A stretch of 64,000 nucleotides of DNA from Phycisphaeraceae bacterium (GTDB taxonomy: Bacteria; Planctomycetota; Phycisphaerae; Phycisphaerales; UBA1924), in contig JAJTHN010000040.1 in assembly GCA_021297895.1 (NCBI GenBank), positions 1-64,000 on the forward strand. The letters run 5' to 3'. The translations under genes and the position numbers were made by a program. The notes below the pieces were generated by a model. The model had not been told where the DNA came from and ran no database searches. It saw only the letters and a program-made list of their open reading frames with translations. Within the stretch, counting starts at the first letter, position 1; every line of letters starts with the position of its first letter. This document shows positions 53,079 through 60,546 of the stretch, in pieces.

Positions 53079-53144
53079 GCGGACTCGGTGCGTCCGATAC
53101 ACCTCTTCGCGGCATTCATGAGTTGGCCGCGGGAGGCGATCGCT

Positions 53145-53597
53145 GTGCAGAATCCGCAGGCACCAGGACTGATCCGGCAGCACGAGAGGTATCGATGCGA
53201 GCACGAAGCGTTCGCGGCGGTGCCTCCCGCTTACGCCGAACAGGTATCGCTCTCGACGCTTGTGAGCGAGACGCGGAACGGTCTGAGCGGGGCCATGAGC
53301 GTCACGATCATCGACTATTCGGCGGGCGGGATCGGCCTCCGCTCGAACGTGTTCATCCCCAAGCGTGCGATGCTGACGGTGGTGCTTCCCGGTGTGGCGG
53401 GTGCGCAGGGTCGCGGCGAAGTGCGGGCGACGGTGCGCGTGCAACGCGTGGCGATGCTGGATCGTTCTCCAACCTACTACCTGGGAACATCGCTCGATGA
53501 GTCGATCGAGGGTCAGCGCGCCGGGACCGCGTTCATCGAGGCGCTGATGTCACGCGCGGGCAACGTGCTGAGCACCAAGGCCGGGGGTGGGGCGTGA
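53145..53597 (+). CDS. PilZ-domain protein heading the secretion/pseudopilin operon
   Basis: A protein of about 150 residues. The PilZ pattern is seen as RQHERYRCEHEAF near the N-terminus and TIIDYSAGGIGLRSNVFIPKR ((D/N)xSxxG), followed by TVVLPG and RVQRV. This fold often binds c-di-GMP through RxxxR and DxSxxG, and both are present in approximate form. GTG at 53145 is preferred because GGGAGG lies 8 bases upstream; GTG 53088 and ATG 53118 are alternatives. The stop overlaps the next gene's GTG (GTGA), coupling it to the ATPase. Confidence 0.75.
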   Translation: MQNPQAPGLIRQHERYRCEHEAFAAVPPAYAEQVSLSTLVSETRNGLSGAMSVTIIDYSAGGIGLRSNVFIPKRAMLTVVLPGVAGAQGRGEVRATVRVQRVAMLDRSPTYYLGTSLDESIEGQRAGTAFIEALMSRAGNVLSTKAGGGA

Positions 53598-55330
53598 TCG
53601 AGCACGATGACTTCATCCTTGCGGCTTTGAGCGAGGAAGGGTCGATCGACCCGTCGACTCTTGAGGCGTGCCGTCGCGCGGCGGCGGAGCAGCGCTTGAG
53701 CGTCTGCCAGGTTCTCGTGGACCGCGGTGTCACGACGGCGCGGACGCTCGCGCTGGTGCGGGCGGGGATCTGCGAGGTCCCGTTCGTTGATCTCGATCAC
53801 TTCCAGATCGATCTGCGGAACTCGTCGCTGCTGGCGCGGTCCTCGGCGCAGGCGCTGCTGGCGTTCCCGCTGTTTGCGTGCGAAGGACTGACCACGGTCG
53901 GGATGGCCAACCCCCTGGACCTCCGGGCGGTCGACCAGTTGCGCTCGCTCATCCGCGGGGACATCGAGCTGGTGCTGTGCGAGCCCTCGGCGCTGCGCGC
54001 GCTGATCGACCGGGCCTATTCGATCTCCGACTCCGGTGAGGCCGGCGCGGGGCCCGCGGCGACGGCCGACTCGCTGACGACGGGCAAGGAGCCGATCGTC
54101 GCGGCGGTGAACCAGATTCTCGCCGATGCGGTGGAACGCGGCGCGTCAGATGTGCATCTGGGGCCGGATGATCAGCGGCTGCATCTGCGGCTGCGGATCG
54201 ACGGGACGCTGATCGCCCTGCAGGCGCCGCCGCTCTCGGCGCACGCCGGGCTCGTGCAGCGGTTGAAGGTCATGGCCAACCTTGACCTGACGCAAACGCG
54301 TCGCCCGCAGGACGGCAAGTTCCGGTTCATGCACGCGGGCAGGGCGGTGGACGTCCGGCTGTCGGTGATCCCGACGGTGGCGGGCGAGAACATCGTCTGC
54401 CGCCTGCTGACCAGCGCCTCGGGCATCCGCGAGTTGAGTGATCTGGGATTCTCCAACGATCACGCGCGGGCGATGACCGAGTGCCTCGACGCTCCGAACG
54501 GAATGCTGCTGGTGACCGGGCCAACGGGCTCGGGCAAGACGACGACGCTGTACGCCGGGCTCAAGCGGCTGAACAGCGCCGAGCGGAACATCGTGACGAT
54601 CGAGGACCCGGTGGAGGTGCGCATGCCGCTGATCCGGCAGGTGCAGGTCTCGCCGGAGATCGGGCTGAACTTTGCCAGTGCGCTGCGGTCGATTCTGCGT
54701 CAGGACCCGGACGTGATCCTCGTGGGCGAGATCCGCGATGAGGAGACGGCACGGATCGCTCTGCAGTCGGCGCTCACTGGGCATCTGGTGCTCAGCTCGC
54801 TTCACACCAACGACGCGCTGGGGGCGATCCCGCGGCTGCTGGACTTCGGCTGCCCGACGTTCGCGGTCAGCTCGGCGCTGCTCGGGATCGTGGCCCAGCG
54901 TCTGGCCAAGCGCGTGTGCACGTACTGCCCCGAGCGCGACACGCCGGCGGCGGATGCGCTCGCGCGATTCTCGATCGGGCCGGGGGATGCGACGGGCTTC
55001 ACCCGTGGCAAGGGGTGCCCGCGGTGCGCCGGGCTTGGCACGCGCGGGCGCATCGGTCTGTACGAGGTGATCCGCATGTCGCCGGTGATCCGTCGCGCGG
55101 TGGAGACGCGCGACACGACCAAGATCATGGCCGCGGCCGCGAGCGACGGATTCCGCCCGATGTGGCACGACGGTGTGCAGAAGGCGCGGCTGGGGCTGAC
55201 GACGCTGAGCGAAGTGTCGCGTGTGGCGGCGGCGATGGATCTTGATGTCGTCGCCGAGGACGGACCGGGCGGCACGGGCGGCGGCGCTGACGGCCGCAAG
55301 GGCAACACCGGACGGAGGACGGCGGCATGA
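53594..55330 (+). CDS. gspE: Type II secretion / type IV pilus assembly ATPase (GspE/PilB)
   Basis: A 578-residue cytoplasmic hexameric ATPase. The N-terminal MshEN-like domain covers residues 1-150. The ATPase core has Walker A GPTGSGKT (K315), the Asp box TIEDPVEV, Walker B ILVGEIRDEETA, and the His box HTND (H404). A zinc-binding CTYC...CPRC motif is present (about 440-480) with GTRGRIGLYEV. It powers pseudopilus polymerisation. Overlaps gspF by four bases. The C-terminal 25 residues are Gly-rich. Confidence 0.95.
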   Translation: MIEHDDFILAALSEEGSIDPSTLEACRRAAAEQRLSVCQVLVDRGVTTARTLALVRAGICEVPFVDLDHFQIDLRNSSLLARSSAQALLAFPLFACEGLTTVGMANPLDLRAVDQLRSLIRGDIELVLCEPSALRALIDRAYSISDSGEAGAGPAATADSLTTGKEPIVAAVNQILADAVERGASDVHLGPDDQRLHLRLRIDGTLIALQAPPLSAHAGLVQRLKVMANLDLTQTRRPQDGKFRFMHAGRAVDVRLSVIPTVAGENIVCRLLTSASGIRELSDLGFSNDHARAMTECLDAPNGMLLVTGPTGSGKTTTLYAGLKRLNSAERNIVTIEDPVEVRMPLIRQVQVSPEIGLNFASALRSILRQDPDVILVGEIRDEETARIALQSALTGHLVLSSLHTNDALGAIPRLLDFGCPTFAVSSALLGIVAQRLAKRVCTYCPERDTPAADALARFSIGPGDATGFTRGKGCPRCAGLGTRGRIGLYEVIRMSPVIRRAVETRDTTKIMAAAASDGFRPMWHDGVQKARLGLTTLSEVSRVAAAMDLDVVAEDGPGGTGGGADGRKGNTGRRTAA

Positions 55331-56538
55331 CTGCGCTGGCGTATCGGTACACCGCGATGGATCGCCAGGGCCGGCGTGTTTCCGGACAGACGAACGCGGC
55401 GAGCGAGAGCGATGCCTATCGCGCGCTGAGCGCCCAGGGGCTCGTGCCGCTGAGTCTGCGGGCGGATCGCGTCGATGGGTGGCTCTCGCTGCAGCGACGC
55501 ACGCGCGTGCGTGTGCGTGAGATCGCGCAGTTCACGGAGCAACTTGCGGTGCTGGTCAATGCTCGCATTCCGCTGGGCGAGGCGCTGATGGGCATCGCCG
55601 AGCAGGAGCCCAACGCAAGGCTCGCGGCGATCGTGACGGAGATTGCGGCAAGCGTGCAGTCGGGCAAGCCGCTGGCCGCGGCGATGGAGCCGCACGCGGG
55701 GCTGTTCGGTCGGACGTACATCGACACGATCCGTGCGGCGGAGGCGACCGGCAGCCTCGTGAAGGTGCTCGAGCATCTCGCGGACATGCTTGCTCGCACG
55801 GAGGCGACGCGGCAGACGGTGCGGAACGCGCTGACCTATCCGGCGTGCGTGATGATGGTGCTGGTGCTCGGCGTCGGCTTCCTGATGGGGTATGTGGTAC
55901 CGAAGTTCGGGCGGATGTTCGAGTCGCGTGGCGTGGAGCTGCCGGCGCTGACGCGCGCGCTGCTGGAGACCTCGACGCTTGCTCGGGAGTGGTGGATGGT
56001 GTGGGTGCCGGGGCTCGTCGTCGGCGGGATTGCGCTGATGCGCTGGTCGCGCACCGCCGCGGGCGGCGCGGCGATGGAGCGGCTGCTCGGGCGCGTGCCG
56101 GTGGTCGGGCCCATGCTTCGGGCGATGGCGATGGCGCGGTTCTGTCACGTCTTCTCGCTCTCGCTGTCGTCGGGCGTGGGTCTGATCGACGCTCTGGATC
56201 TTGCCGGGCGCGCGTGCGGACGGATCGGGCTCGAGAGCGATGCGCGGCGGATCGCCGAGCGCGTGCGGACGGGCGGACGGCTGACGGACGCCATGGCGGC
56301 GTGCGCATCGTTCAATCCGATGACGCGTCGCATGCTCAGCGCGGGCGAGACTTCGGGCGAGCTTCCCCGAATGGCGGCGGTGGTCGCCAGGCAGCACGAT
56401 GCACAGTCCCAGAATATCGCTAGGAATCTTGCGGTGATCATCGAGCCGCTGCTGGTTGTAGGGATTGCAGCGATCGTGCTGATCGTTGCGCTGGCGGTCT
56501 TTCTCCCTATGTGGGACATGGTCAAGCTCGTTTCGTGA
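55327..56538 (+). CDS. gspF: Type II secretion inner-membrane platform protein (GspF/PilC)
   Basis: A 403-residue protein beginning YRYTAMDRQGRRVSGQTNA, the standard GspF start. Two GspF domains (about residues 65-190 and 270-400) each end in transmembrane helices; helices lie near 175-195, 220-240 and 375-400. It anchors the assembly ATPase and pseudopilins. Overlaps gspE by four bases (ATGA). An 84-base gap, locally AT-rich, separates it from the major pseudopilin gene and may hold a second promoter. Confidence 0.94.
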   Translation: MTALAYRYTAMDRQGRRVSGQTNAASESDAYRALSAQGLVPLSLRADRVDGWLSLQRRTRVRVREIAQFTEQLAVLVNARIPLGEALMGIAEQEPNARLAAIVTEIAASVQSGKPLAAAMEPHAGLFGRTYIDTIRAAEATGSLVKVLEHLADMLARTEATRQTVRNALTYPACVMMVLVLGVGFLMGYVVPKFGRMFESRGVELPALTRALLETSTLAREWWMVWVPGLVVGGIALMRWSRTAAGGAAMERLLGRVPVVGPMLRAMAMARFCHVFSLSLSSGVGLIDALDLAGRACGRIGLESDARRIAERVRTGGRLTDAMAACASFNPMTRRMLSAGETSGELPRMAAVVARQHDAQSQNIARNLAVIIEPLLVVGIAAIVLIVALAVFLPMWDMVKLVS

Positions 56539-56622: not shown

Positions 56623-57102
56623 ATGTTGATGCTCGCGAGTCGTCGACGCCTTGGCTTCACGTTGATCGAACTCATTGCGGTGATCGTGGTACTGGCGATC
56701 CTTGCCGGCGTGGCTGTTCCGCGGTACTTTGATTACACGGACCGAGCCCGAACGAGCGCCGTGCAGGGCACGCTGGGCAATGTGCGCTCGGCGATCCAGA
56801 ACTTCTACGCCAACGCGAGCCTGTCGGGCTCGCCGGCCTACCCGACGCTCGCGCAGTTTCAGACGATCGGGTCGGTGCTGCAGGACCAGATGCCACTGAA
56901 TCCGTACAACAACCTCGCGACGATCACGTCGGCGACGAGCGCTGAGTGGACCGCGCGGACCGTCGACGGTACCGCGGGTTGGCGGTACTTCGTCGACAAT
57001 ACGACGACCCCGCCGACGTACGGCTTCTACATCAACAGCACGGCCAACACGACGGTGCCGAACGCCGCGGGCACCGGCGTCATGACGGCGAACCAACTCT
57101 AA
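56623..57102 (+). CDS. gspG: Major pseudopilin (GspG-like)
   Basis: A 159-residue prepilin. The class III signal is short: RRRLG|FTLIELIAVIVVLAILAGVAVP, with cleavage after G11 and E at position +5 (E16). The C-terminal domain has the pattern NVRSAIQNFYANASLSGSPAYPTLAQF. GspG-type assignment rests on being the first pseudopilin after GspF and on this layout. AGGAG is 7 bases before the ATG. Prepilin peptidase is not in the window. Confidence 0.88.
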   Translation: MLMLASRRRLGFTLIELIAVIVVLAILAGVAVPRYFDYTDRARTSAVQGTLGNVRSAIQNFYANASLSGSPAYPTLAQFQTIGSVLQDQMPLNPYNNLATITSATSAEWTARTVDGTAGWRYFVDNTTTPPTYGFYINSTANTTVPNAAGTGVMTANQL

Positions 57103-57202
57103 GTTGAATCACGATGCGATCGGCGACGGAAACGCGCCGATCGCACTTCTGCCTCCGCAACCGTGCCATCGCCGCGCTGTGGGGCGGGCGGGGACTCGAC
57201 GC

Positions 57203-57760
57203 ATGACCAGACCGCCGGCCAGCGATGACGCGACGCCCCGGCACGCCCGGGCGTGCGGACGATCGGGCTTTACGCTCATCGAACTCATCGCGGTCATCAT
57301 CATCCTTGCGGTAGTTGCGATGGTCGCGGCACCATCGCTCGTCGGCGCCGCGGAGGCCCGCGTTCGCGCTGGTGCGCAGCAGATGGCACGCGACCTGGCT
57401 TACGCGCGGGGGCGGGCGCAGTCGACGGGGATCGCGATCTGGGTGCGGTTCACGCCGGCGCAGTCGATGTACACGGTTCTCGCTGAGTCGGGCGTCGGGG
57501 CGGGGAGGACCACGGCGCTGACGATCACGGATCCCGCGACCGGCGGGCCGATGGTTGTGCGGCTCGACCGCGAGGAGTCGCGCGGGGCGACCTTCTCGAT
57601 CAACGGGCTGACGGGCGACGAGGTCGGCTTTGATCGGGGCGGTCGGCCGCTGAACCCCGATACGTCTGTTCTCGCATCCAACGCGACGATCGCGTTCCCC
57701 GGCGGAGCCACGGTGACGATCACGGGACGAACCGGCAACATCTCGGTGGTGACGCCATGA
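57203..57760 (+). CDS. Minor pseudopilin (GspH-like)
   Basis: A protein of about 185 residues. The prepilin signal RSG|FTLIELIAVIIILAVVAMVAAP (cleavage after G22, E+5 present) is followed by ARDLAYARGRAQSTGIAIWVRF, the helix typical of GspH/FimT-like subunits, and a beta-rich C-terminus. The ATG at 57203 gives an N-terminal leader of 22 residues; the frame is open upstream but GGGGA precedes this ATG. Overlaps the next gene by four bases. Confidence 0.85.
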   Translation: MTRPPASDDATPRHARACGRSGFTLIELIAVIIILAVVAMVAAPSLVGAAEARVRAGAQQMARDLAYARGRAQSTGIAIWVRFTPAQSMYTVLAESGVGAGRTTALTITDPATGGPMVVRLDREESRGATFSINGLTGDEVGFDRGGRPLNPDTSVLASNATIAFPGGATVTITGRTGNISVVTP

Positions 57761-58212
57761 GTGCCGTTCGCGTTCGGTCAGTGCGCGGAAGCCGGATCGG
57801 TGGTCGCCGACGCGGCTTGACGCTCATCGAAGGGCTGATCGCGATCGTGGTGATCTCGGTGGCGATGCCGCCGATGATCATGGCCATCAGCAGCGCGGGC
57901 GTGCGGCGGGCGTCGCAGGCGATGGCGCTGCGTGCGCGATGGCTCGCGGCCGAACGGCTGGAGACGGTGCTGGCCGATCGCCACAGCGCAGCGCGCGGGT
58001 GGTCGTTCATCACGTCATCGAACTACCCGGGCGAGAGCACGATCGCCGGCTTCCCCGGATTCAGCAGGACCACATCGATCAGCGATCGCGGGCCGGGGCT
58101 CGGGGCCGGAACCGGGTATCGGCTGGTCAGCGTGAATGTGACGTACGTCGATCCGCTGGGAGGCAGCGAGACGCTGACGATGAGCACGGTTGTGAGCGAC
58201 TACACGCCATGA
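57757..58212 (+). CDS. Minor pseudopilin (GspI-like)
   Basis: A 151-residue prepilin with RRRG|LTLIEGLIAIVVISVAMPP (cleavage after G20, E+5 present) and RASQAMALRARWLAAERLETVLADR, typical of GspI/PilV-type subunits where the first residue after cleavage is not Phe. Overlaps the upstream gene by four bases (ATGA). Confidence 0.83.
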   Translation: MSAVRVRSVRGSRIGGRRRGLTLIEGLIAIVVISVAMPPMIMAISSAGVRRASQAMALRARWLAAERLETVLADRHSAARGWSFITSSNYPGESTIAGFPGFSRTTSISDRGPGLGAGTGYRLVSVNVTYVDPLGGSETLTMSTVVSDYTP

Positions 58213-58222
58213 GGACCGGATC

Positions 58223-58783
58223 ATGCGACGCACGATCACTCGACAATCGGCAGCAAGGGGCACACGCGGGGCGTTCACGCTCATCGAGCTGCTGTGCGCG
58301 ATCGTTGTGCTCGGCGTGCTCGGGTCGGTGACGTCCGCGATCATTCTGCGTGCGGGCGTGGCTTTCGCCGGCGCGGGGGTCGCCTCGCAGCTTGCGCTCG
58401 AGGGCGACAGCGCGATGGAGGCCGTGGCGCGGCTGATCCGCACGATCCCCACGCGGACCGGGACAAGCCCGGCGGCGCCGATGATCACATCGGTCGCCGC
58501 GGACTCGATCACGTTCGGATCGGCGACGACGATCGCGCGAGTGGGAACGGAACTGCGGCTGACCGAGGGCGGCCAGACGCGCACGCTCGCGGACGATGTG
58601 AGCGACTTTCTGATCGAGCCGATGAGCAACGCGGGGGCGGCGCTGAGCGTGCCGATGTCGGGCGCGGCGGTGGATGCTGTCCAGCGCGTGCGGGTGACGC
58701 TGAGTCTGAGCAGGAATGGGCAGAGCCAGACGCTGCGGACAACGGTGTTCATTCGTTCCCTCCTGGCCGGAGCGCAACCATGA
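58223..58783 (+). CDS. Minor pseudopilin (GspJ-like)
   Basis: A 186-residue prepilin. The signal reads RGA|FTLIELLCAIVVLGVLGSVTSAI, so Ala replaces Gly at -1, a known but less common cleavage site. QLALEGDSAMEAVARLIRTIP follows and resembles GspJ/PilW helices. Starts 10 bases after the GspI stop and overlaps the next gene by four bases. Confidence 0.83.
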   Translation: MRRTITRQSAARGTRGAFTLIELLCAIVVLGVLGSVTSAIILRAGVAFAGAGVASQLALEGDSAMEAVARLIRTIPTRTGTSPAAPMITSVAADSITFGSATTIARVGTELRLTEGGQTRTLADDVSDFLIEPMSNAGAALSVPMSGAAVDAVQRVRVTLSLSRNGQSQTLRTTVFIRSLLAGAQP

Positions 58784-60546
58784 CGCGAGCGAGCCGCGGG
58801 CTATCTCCAGAGGGTCTTGCGGCGTCGCGCAGCGATGTGTGCCAACGCGGATCTGCGATGGTCGCGATTCTCGTCGCACTTATGGCGCTGCAGATGGTCG
58901 TCGCCGTGCTGGTGCTCAGCGGCGCGAGGTCTGACGACATGACCGCACGCTCGGTCGCCGGGCTGAGAGCGCAGTACGCCAGCGACGCGGCGCTGAACAT
59001 GGCGCTGCGCGAGGCGTTTGTCAACGCCGATGAGGATGGCGACGGAACCATCGGCGGAGTCTCGGGCGATGCGCTGGCCAGCAACGACCCCGCGATCGGT
59101 GCCGCCCGAGCGAGTGTGACGTCGACGCTTGTCGGCAGCGACCGCATGCTCAGCGCCAGCGCCCGGAGCGACGAGGCCCGGCGGAGCGCCAGCGCGACGG
59201 TGCGAACAACGGTCGCCACCGGCAGCGGTCTGCGGCGCGGGCTGAGGATCGAGGGTTGGGCGTTCGCGTCGAATCCATCGAGCATCACGGGCATCAACTG
59301 GAACGCGACACCGACGACAACCGGCTCGGTACCGTGGATCAACAGCCCATCCGCCGGCAACGCGAGATGGGCCGGTGGTCCGAACATCCGTTTCGCGCTG
59401 CGCTTGACCGGGAGAATCACCGTTCCCGCAGCGGGAACGTGGACATTCGGCGCAGGCTCGGACGACGGCGTGGAGCTGCTGATCAACGGCACGAGCGTGG
59501 TGTTTCACAACGGTCCGCGGGGCTTTGATGTATCGTCGGGGAACATCAGTCTGACCGCGGGTGCGCACGACATTGAGGTGCGGTTCTTCGAGGCGAATGG
59601 CGAGAACGGGCTGACGCTCACGTGGTCCGGACCGACCGTACCGACATCGGTGCTGGTGCCGCCCTCGGCGTTCTCGCACGATCCGAGCGGCCAGGCGCAC
59701 GTGGCGATGCGGTCCGGCGTGAACATCTGGGGCGACAACACGAGCACCGGAGCGAGCATCGACGCGTTCAATTCCGCCAACGGGCCGTACTCCGCCGCGA
59801 CGGCGCTCTCGACCGGTGCGCTGGTGGTGATCAACTCGTCGGCGAATCAGTCCTGGCAGATGTTGGATCAGGCGATCGTGCGCGGCGATGCGGGCGTGGC
59901 GCCGGGGGCCAATCCATCGAGCGTCATCGCGACGTGGACCGGCTCGTCGATCACCGGAACGCATACGGCCCAGGCCTCGCAGCACGGTGTGTTCCACGTC
60001 ACACCGCCGACGCTTTCGAGCAGCGGCGCGTTCAACACCGGCGGGGTGCACACGCTGACGACCGATCGTCGATACACATCATTCCAGATGTGGGGCAACG
60101 GTTCGACGTTCACCGTCACCGGCGACGTGACGATGGTTGTTGATGGTGATCTCCAGCTGGCCGACTCGGCGCAGATCATCATCACGCCGGGTTCCACATT
60201 GACGCTGTTCATCGGGGGCAATCTCGATGTCTACAACGCCACGAGCATCAACGCGACGGGCACACCGGATCAGTGCTCCATCTTCATGACCGGTGCCGGC
60301 CGGAACCTCAACATGACCGATCAGGCGCAGGTCGTGGCACACCTGCGTTGCTGGGATGGTCAGGCGAACATCTCGGGCCAGGGCTCGGGCAGCGACTTTT
60401 TCGGAACGCTCCGCGCGACGACGCTCAATCTCTCGTCCAAGGCCCGCATTCATGCCGACATCAACACCGGCTCGGGCGGATCCGGAGGTGGAAGCGGCGG
60501 CACGACGCGGCGGGTCACGAGCGTTGCCGACGGGCCGCTGTTCTGA
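58780..60546 (+). CDS. PilX/GspK-like pilus-tip protein with a PA14 domain
   Basis: A 588-residue protein. The N-terminus has RGSAMVAILVALMALQMVVAVLVLSG then ARSVAGLRAQYASDAALNMALREAF, the PilX/GspK pattern (no FTLIE). Residues about 150-300 form a PA14-like beta-barrel: RITVPAAGTWTFGAGSDDGVELLINGTSVV, GAHDIEVRFFEANGENGLTLTWSG. A C-terminal region (about 430-570; MVVDGDLQLADSAQIIITPG, LFIGGNLDVYNATSINA, GSDFFGTLRATTLNLSSKARI) is a right-handed beta-repeat resembling the beta-domain of PilX-type proteins. PA14 domains bind carbohydrates. Overlaps GspJ by four bases; the last gene of the operon. Confidence 0.85.
   Translation: MTRASRGLSPEGLAASRSDVCQRGSAMVAILVALMALQMVVAVLVLSGARSDDMTARSVAGLRAQYASDAALNMALREAFVNADEDGDGTIGGVSGDALASNDPAIGAARASVTSTLVGSDRMLSASARSDEARRSASATVRTTVATGSGLRRGLRIEGWAFASNPSSITGINWNATPTTTGSVPWINSPSAGNARWAGGPNIRFALRLTGRITVPAAGTWTFGAGSDDGVELLINGTSVVFHNGPRGFDVSSGNISLTAGAHDIEVRFFEANGENGLTLTWSGPTVPTSVLVPPSAFSHDPSGQAHVAMRSGVNIWGDNTSTGASIDAFNSANGPYSAATALSTGALVVINSSANQSWQMLDQAIVRGDAGVAPGANPSSVIATWTGSSITGTHTAQASQHGVFHVTPPTLSSSGAFNTGGVHTLTTDRRYTSFQMWGNGSTFTVTGDVTMVVDGDLQLADSAQIIITPGSTLTLFIGGNLDVYNATSINATGTPDQCSIFMTGAGRNLNMTDQAQVVAHLRCWDGQANISGQGSGSDFFGTLRATTLNLSSKARIHADINTGSGGSGGGSGGTTRRVTSVADGPLF

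Follow-up and report, generated by a model that had tools for sequence, protein, structure and literature searches.

The last gene of a gsp-like operon was found to encode a minor pilin that carries a PA14 domain and a beta-solenoid on the same chain. The protein lacks the glutamate at position 5 of the mature pilin, which agrees with the K position given by gene order, and the joining of pilin and PA14 recurs in 17 further genomes of the order. The reading that we favor, with modest confidence, is that K is the cap subunit of a type IV filament machine that is fused to its own tip adhesin, that its C-terminal strand completes the pilin sheet, and that its PA14 domain binds a glycan via calcium.

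Organization of the operon

The window, i.e., the whole stretch of DNA that was analysed (64,000 nucleotides), contains an operon with the gene order PilZ-E-F-G-H-I-J-K (Table 1). The original prediction had called the K gene as the last gene of a gsp-like operon, and the order of E, F and four prepilin genes followed by K agreed with this call. The ATG of the K gene at 58780 overlaps the stop codon of J (58783) by four bases (ATGA). The four prepilins encoded 5′ of K have a GFTLIE-type N-terminus with Glu5, in contrast to K (QRG/SAMVA). The PilZ-like gene at the head of the operon is kept 5′ of GspE in most of the complete loci of relatives.

Table 1. Features of the operon and of the K gene, with window positions.
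Feature	Position	Strand	Basis
PilZ-like protein, operon head	53088..53597	+	Pfam PilZ E 0.0095, under cut-off
GspE/PilB-type assembly ATPase with MshEN domain	53594..55330	+	PF00437 E 2.8e-117; MshEN E 2.3e-15
GspF/PilC-type platform protein	55327..56538	+	PF00482 E 2.3e-49
G-position prepilin (GFTLIE)	56623..57102	+	N_methyl E 5.6e-7; GspG-like under cut-off
H-position prepilin, start codon uncertain	57104..57760	+	N_methyl E 4e-6; GspH 37 bits vs cut-off 80
I-position prepilin	57757..58212	+	N_methyl E 1.4e-4; conserved in relatives
J-position prepilin	58223..58783	+	N_methyl E 1.8e-5; sequence
K-position modular minor pilin gene, 588 aa	58780..60546	+	profiles, AlphaFold2 model, Foldseek, VIA-align
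K: prepilin leader with a final QRG; mature position 5 is not Glu	58780..58851	+	sequence
K: pilin domain, with helix 24-81 and then three strands up to residue 145	58849..59214	+	AlphaFold2; VIA-align
K: EF-hand-like loop DEDGDGxxG, residues 84-92	59029..59055	+	weak EF-hand and calmodulin-loop profile matches
K: PA14 domain, residues 150-303	59227..59688	+	Pfam, AlphaFold2, Foldseek, VIA-align
K: Asp228-Asp229, counterpart of the DcisD Ca-binding pair	59461..59466	+	alignment to 6m8m (D136/D137)
K: beta-solenoid, residues 308-560, DUF7305	59701..60459	+	Pfam; model; VIA matches to ice-binding solenoids and ComZ
K: Gly/Ser linker and C-terminal strand (RRVTSVADGPLF), degenerate hxxWxE tag	60472..60543	+	AlphaFold2; tag common to unrelated tails

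The pilin domain of K

The K protein has a class III leader without Glu5 and its gene follows H, I and J. Glu at position +5 was found in none (0) of the K-family members counted, and in other type IV filaments the K subunit that forms the cap is marked by its absence (PMC9934059). A PilX/GspK-type N-terminus had been predicted, and this is borne out by the position of the gene, the missing Glu5 and the predicted fold. It is not borne out by profile searches, in which the window protein matched none of the GspK, PilX_N and N_methyl (PF07963) profiles. Weak matches to GspK and PilX_N (E values up to 0.05) were obtained with 15 and 13 of 69 relatives, respectively. The protein is named K-position and GspK-like here, and it is not filed as a member of GspK or PilX_N.

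A whole-protein AlphaFold2 model, which was built with 18 homologs, had a mean pLDDT of 83, and the PA14 and solenoid blocks were mostly at about 90. The layout comprises a helix (24-81), strands (109-145), the PA14 domain (about 150-303), the solenoid (about 308-560), a Gly/Ser linker, and a short final strand. When the pilin domain was folded alone with 69 sequences, the top VIA match was ComZ (75 residues, rmsd 2.3) with a Z value of 7.4, which falls inside the range of common arrangements; Z values were modest in this ranking, in which the Xcp pseudopilus came third. Foldseek gave no significant match for the pilin domain alone (best E 0.3). The domain contains an EF-hand-like loop (DxDxDGxxG), in which the D, D, D, G and G are nearly invariant across 69 K proteins and which may bind calcium.

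The PA14 domain and the solenoid

The PA14 domain and the C-terminal beta-repeat that had been read from the sequence are indeed present on one chain. The Pfam profile PA14 (PF07691) matched residues 202-289 (E 4.4e-10, 40 bits, cut-off 24) and DUF7305 (PF23981) matched residues 440-560 (E 1.4e-11, 45 bits, cut-off 27), and in the AlphaFold2 model the two parts are a sandwich and a solenoid. The SDDGVELLINGTSVV core comprises residues 227-241. A comparison of the predicted structure with PA14 domains, which had been proposed as a check, showed a PA14 sandwich. In Foldseek the best PDB matches were PA14 domains from Marinomonas in complex with sugar (E 1.6e-8, TMt about 0.70), and VIA-align gave Z values of 18-21 for PA14. 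The nearest structural neighbors of the domain are the PA14 domains with bound sugar from adhesins of Marinomonas and Marinobacter, RsgI3, and yeast flocculins.

In PA14 lectins calcium is bound by a DcisD pair (PMC6650083, PMC8092209), and in MhPA14 the sugar-bearing calcium is held by D136, D137 and D181 (PMC6650083). Their counterparts in the window K are, by alignment with 6m8m, D228, D229 and E271. Of 18 aligned members of the PA14-K family, 11 retain the DD pair and 7 lack the full pair. Nine of the 11 members with DD, including the window K, also have an acidic third ligand, versus 2 of the 7 without it (Fisher p 0.049, uncorrected for family relatedness). Judged from the alignment, the putative calcium site is kept in the window K and many relatives and has decayed in some. 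With 7 of the 18 members devoid of the full pair, the predicted calcium-dependent binding is not under uniform constraint in this family. Glycan binding by the K PA14 domain is plausible, because D228, D229 and the acidic third ligand E271 are kept. There is good support for a tip position of this K-type pilin and for the lectin fold of its PA14 domain; the original prediction had also named uptake, and for this no support was found.

The solenoid matched ice-binding solenoids with VIA Z values of about 16-17. The C-terminal strand (575-584) was modelled at a pLDDT of 44-51, and the tag of the window K itself (VTSVADGP) is devoid of Trp, both of which weigh against the favored model. Alternatively, the solenoid might bind DNA at the tip of a competence filament, with PA14 as an accessory domain. 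The nearest whole-protein architecture, ComZ of Thermus, binds DNA (PMC6561018), the genome contains a ComEC-family gene, and a gene for a PilT-type ATPase is located about 13 kb past the end of the window. We regard such a ComZ-like DNA receptor as quite unlikely. ComEC is widespread (10 of 14 control genomes), unrelated domains replace the whole PA14-solenoid tail in relatives, and the solenoid is acidic (1 Lys, net charge of about -6), the latter being a weak counter-argument.

Variable tails at the K position

A profile of the K pilin domain (E 1e-10) was searched against a sample of 400 genomes of the order, of which 75 gave a match, and the surroundings of about 80 K genes were examined. 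In most loci with enough sequence the E, F, G, H, I and J genes were found 5′ of K. A pilin domain of about 120 aa is common to the K proteins, and the tails vary. About half of them (approximately 43) have no tail, 15 have PA14 plus the solenoid (16 when a frameshifted copy in G216 is included), and three have PA14 only. The remaining tails are NHL, LamG, GH115_C-like, WGS-type repeat or unassigned domains. The survey of relatives, another check that had been proposed, thus revealed PA14 on the same pilin in 17 further genomes, and this recurrence rules out that the fusion is an assembly artefact or due to chance.

The frameshift in the K gene of G216 (L041:9781-11447) is located between the pilin domain and PA14; it is an isolated case and represents either a sequencing error or a true break. 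In G199 (L042:8950-10770) two K genes form a tandem; their pilin domains are almost identical, and their modules differ (GH115_C-like versus PA14). A query with the single K protein against genome contigs yielded no related loci. With a tighter K alignment as query 12 loci were retrieved, mostly titled Phycisphaerales or Planctomycetota, together with one labelled Vicinamibacteraceae and one labelled uncultured bacterium.

In a GspE tree of 45 loci the presence of PA14 changes at least seven times, compared to 9-14 times with shuffled labels, and therefore PA14 on K is partly inherited and partly the result of repeated gain or loss. Close relatives swap tail domains or make the module as a separate, tagged secreted protein, which suggests that the K position serves as a socket into which different tip tools can be fitted.

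The variation also bears on the view that K is a structural cap only, with PA14 and the solenoid as bulky, inert plugs that set the filament length or gate the secretin. That about half of the K genes are tail-less, so that the module is dispensable, and that DD is lost in some homologs would fit such a role, and yet binding folds are used recurrently and the residues of the calcium site are retained in the window K and many homologs. A purely structural role is thus judged to be very improbable.

A C-terminal tag in fused and separate modules

Tails of unrelated type that are fused to K have similar ends: RWQEVEP (NHL), LWTESEP (WGS repeat), SWQEVEP (LamG) and SWTDLP (PA14 plus solenoid). The motif hydrophobic-x-x-W was present in the last 22 residues of 10 of 13 non-PA14 tails, whereas random segments drawn from these tails would give 1.7 (in 10,000 draws the value of 10 was never reached; as some tails are related, the draws overstate their independence). 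The secreted protein that is encoded directly after a tail-less K often ends in hydrophobic-x-x-W-x-E as well, e.g., SWTEIEP, RWTEVDP or SWQEVEP. A tagged next gene was found after 17 of 24 tail-less or PA14-only K genes and after none of 13 fused K genes (Fisher p 2e-5), a count based on complete next ORFs other than the L-like gene, mechanical ORF calls and related genomes, in which some "no motif" ORFs after fused K may be non-genes. One of the 17 is in fact the latter half of the frameshifted K gene of G216 (L041), and 16 of 23 remain when it is set aside.

Three module families, WGS-repeat, NHL and LamG, were found both fused to K and as separate proteins. The identity between the WGS-repeat tail fused to K in L052 and the separate protein of L105 is 57% over 428 aa. 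For the NHL tail that is fused to K in L053, the identity to separate proteins encoded in L103 and L108 is 46-50%, and the LamG domains of L146 and L127 are 38% identical. The genomes of L053 and L108 belong to the same genus (g144). L053 and L109, also of the same genus, have nearly identical GspE proteins, and the NHL module is fused in L053 and a separate secreted gene in the other genome.

Tandem PA14-like secreted proteins of about 1000-1300 aa were observed in L203, L204, L206 and L208-L215 (e.g., L208:6222-9701). They end in VVRWREIG, LLSWTEVDP or the like, and the stretches read contained no K gene. The PA14 repeats of one of them were confirmed by Pfam, and the genes often adjoin a gene for a second tagged secreted protein.

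Among 163 mechanically called genes of the window's genome, only one unrelated C-terminus fitted a loose tag pattern. I pilins match the pattern too with their last hairpin (VSWTD), which accounts for about 20 of 39 background matches. The tag is thus not unique as a pattern, and it is informative through its position next to K and at the extreme C-terminus. The last hairpin of I pilins of relatives (VNWTD or VSWTD, e.g., L113:4175-4621) resembles the K tag, and this is possibly a common pilin strand sequence.

Tentatively, hydrophobic-x-x-W-x-E might be a general plug in Phycisphaerales-type planctomycetes, by which any tagged secreted protein is attached to the K pilin, itself incomplete, of a T2SS-like machine, the window gene being the hard-wired version. 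This would cover tagged proteins encoded beside K or elsewhere, including the tandem-PA14 proteins, and if true it would amount to a sorting code by which filament tips can be interchanged.

The type of the machine and the genome context

Neither E nor F reached a curated equivalog cut-off; the scores were 473 of 630 bits for GspE, 494 of 676 bits for PilB, and 314 of 424 bits for GspF (TIGR02120). An L-like gene follows K in 36 of 61 loci of relatives with room for it, and M-like and C-like genes come after K as well; the profile matches in relatives were weak and comprised T2SSM (26.0 bits, cut-off 27.8), T2SSC and PilN. Contig C65 of the window's genome carries an L-like homolog, with two small genes after it. 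The GspL/GspM/GspC-like genes that follow K in relatives give the machine a more T2SS-like appearance than had originally been assumed.

These genes count against the tip adhesin, as the filament may stay periplasmic like the pseudopilus of a T2SS. The K module could then be a substrate receptor that captures exoproteins or glycosylated cargo prior to export, the separate tagged proteins being the cargo. The L-, M- and C-like genes 3′ of K are in line with this, as are the tagged secreted proteins encoded beside K and elsewhere, such as the tandem-PA14 proteins. Nevertheless, we consider a periplasmic receptor unlikely: a cargo fused in cis would stay bound to its pilin, several of the modules have folds typical of binding domains, and with curated cut-offs the machine is not assigned to T2SS.

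The window's genome (3.5 Mb) yielded 14 T2SSE-family ATPase matches, five secretin matches and the PilT-type ATPase, and thus several parallel type IV filament systems coexist in it. T2SSE-family and secretin matches were located on the G000 contigs C8, C10, C17, C46, C50, C56, C62, C67, C68, C71 and C79. The only other PA14 gene of the genome lies about 17 kb past the end of the window (L034:16264-17232). It encodes a secreted, fibro-slime-like protein of 323 aa, which has no C-terminal tag.

A model for the function of K

In the favored model of a cap subunit fused to its own tip adhesin, the leader of K would be cleaved by prepilin peptidase, and K, which has no Glu5, would be located at the distal tip, where it rests on I and J, and H would lie beneath them. 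The chain would exit after the third pilin strand and form first the PA14 lectin and then the beta-solenoid. The Gly/Ser linker would bring it back, so that the short C-terminal strand could complete the K pilin sheet. K would thus be an incomplete pilin, and the missing strand would be supplied by the end of the tip module, either from the same chain, as in the window, or from the product of a neighboring gene, as in relatives. PA14 is predicted to bind vicinal diols of a glycan through calcium held by D228, D229 and E271, and this binding could attach the cells to polysaccharide-rich surfaces. That known binding folds (LamG, GH115_C, NHL) are among the alternative tails at the K position supports the adhesin model. 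The completion of the sheet fits two precedents, because the module of ComZ is inserted before the last pilin strand and the end of PilY1 has been modelled as an added strand.

Attachment of planctomycetes to polysaccharides is ecologically important and poorly understood. If the model is true, a natural series exists in which the same tip modules are either fused to the cap pilin or separate and share one C-terminal strand. The rule of strand addition at type IV filament tips, which so far rests mainly on computer models of PilX/PilY1, would become directly testable, and a simple predictor would be at hand for secreted proteins that ride on such filaments in uncultured planctomycetes.

Comparison with known systems

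The nearest known architecture is that of ComZ of Thermus thermophilus (PDB 6qvi; PMC6561018), to which a PA14 domain has been added. ComZ also has a GspK-like pilin domain and a large beta-solenoid related to ice-binding solenoids, an atypical position 5, and an expected location at the tip; its last pilin strand follows the inserted domain, an arrangement that is predicted for the window K. The domain order and the VIA matches of the window K fit this type, with the return strand at low pLDDT. The window K differs by the PA14 lectin ahead of the solenoid and by the acidic EF-hand-like loop. In a PDB sequence search ComZ matched with an E value of 0.024 over 18 residues only, and the comparison with residues 58-588 of the model (VIA Z 13.5, rmsd 15) indicated that the domains are arranged differently.

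GspK/XcpX of the T2SS is likewise the last pilin after H-I-J, lacks Glu5 and is expected at the tip, and it has known calcium sites (PMC6211770). In contrast, the model of the window K has beta modules instead of the GspK alpha-domain, and the protein did not reach the NCBIfam GspK model.

For the PilX/PilY1 tip complex of Myxococcus xanthus it is also predicted that the uppermost minor pilin has its sheet completed by the C-terminal strand of an adhesin. There, the eight C-terminal residues of PilY1 (LQNVYELP, SKVLIYAP) were modelled as a strand that joins the PilX sheet (PMC11046646), and a paper from 2026 discusses strand complementation as a feature of general occurrence (PMC13190605). In the window K, cap pilin and adhesin are one chain, whereas relatives keep them separate; the PilY1 propeller (PF05567) was absent from the Pfam matches of K and of the separate partners scanned.

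The PA14 domains MpPA14 and MhPA14 (6x7j, 6m8m) share the fold, and their aspartate pair and acidic third ligand align with those of K. They are parts of RTX adhesins that are exported by type I secretion, their third calcium ligand is Asp versus Glu in the window K, and their sugar-contact residues are not conserved in it.

A binding module grafted onto a pilin is also present in PilB and PilC of Streptococcus sanguinis, and in an InterPro survey of modular pilins PA14 was among the 15 most frequent added modules (PMC8179133, PMC9934059). PilB and PilC carry the N_methyl motif (IPR012902), as do the surveyed modular pilins (PMC8179133), and PF07963 did not match the window K, which nevertheless works like a modular pilin; it is of the K type without Glu5 and has two modules and a predicted C-terminal return strand. 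Literature searches retrieved no paper on planctomycete K pilins with PA14. Taken together, PA14-bearing modular pilins (PMC8179133), ComZ and the modelled strand addition by PilY1 are already known, and new, as judged from the literature searched, are a K cap that combines PA14 with a solenoid, the slot with its exchangeable modules, and the series of modules in cis and in trans that share one C-terminal tag.
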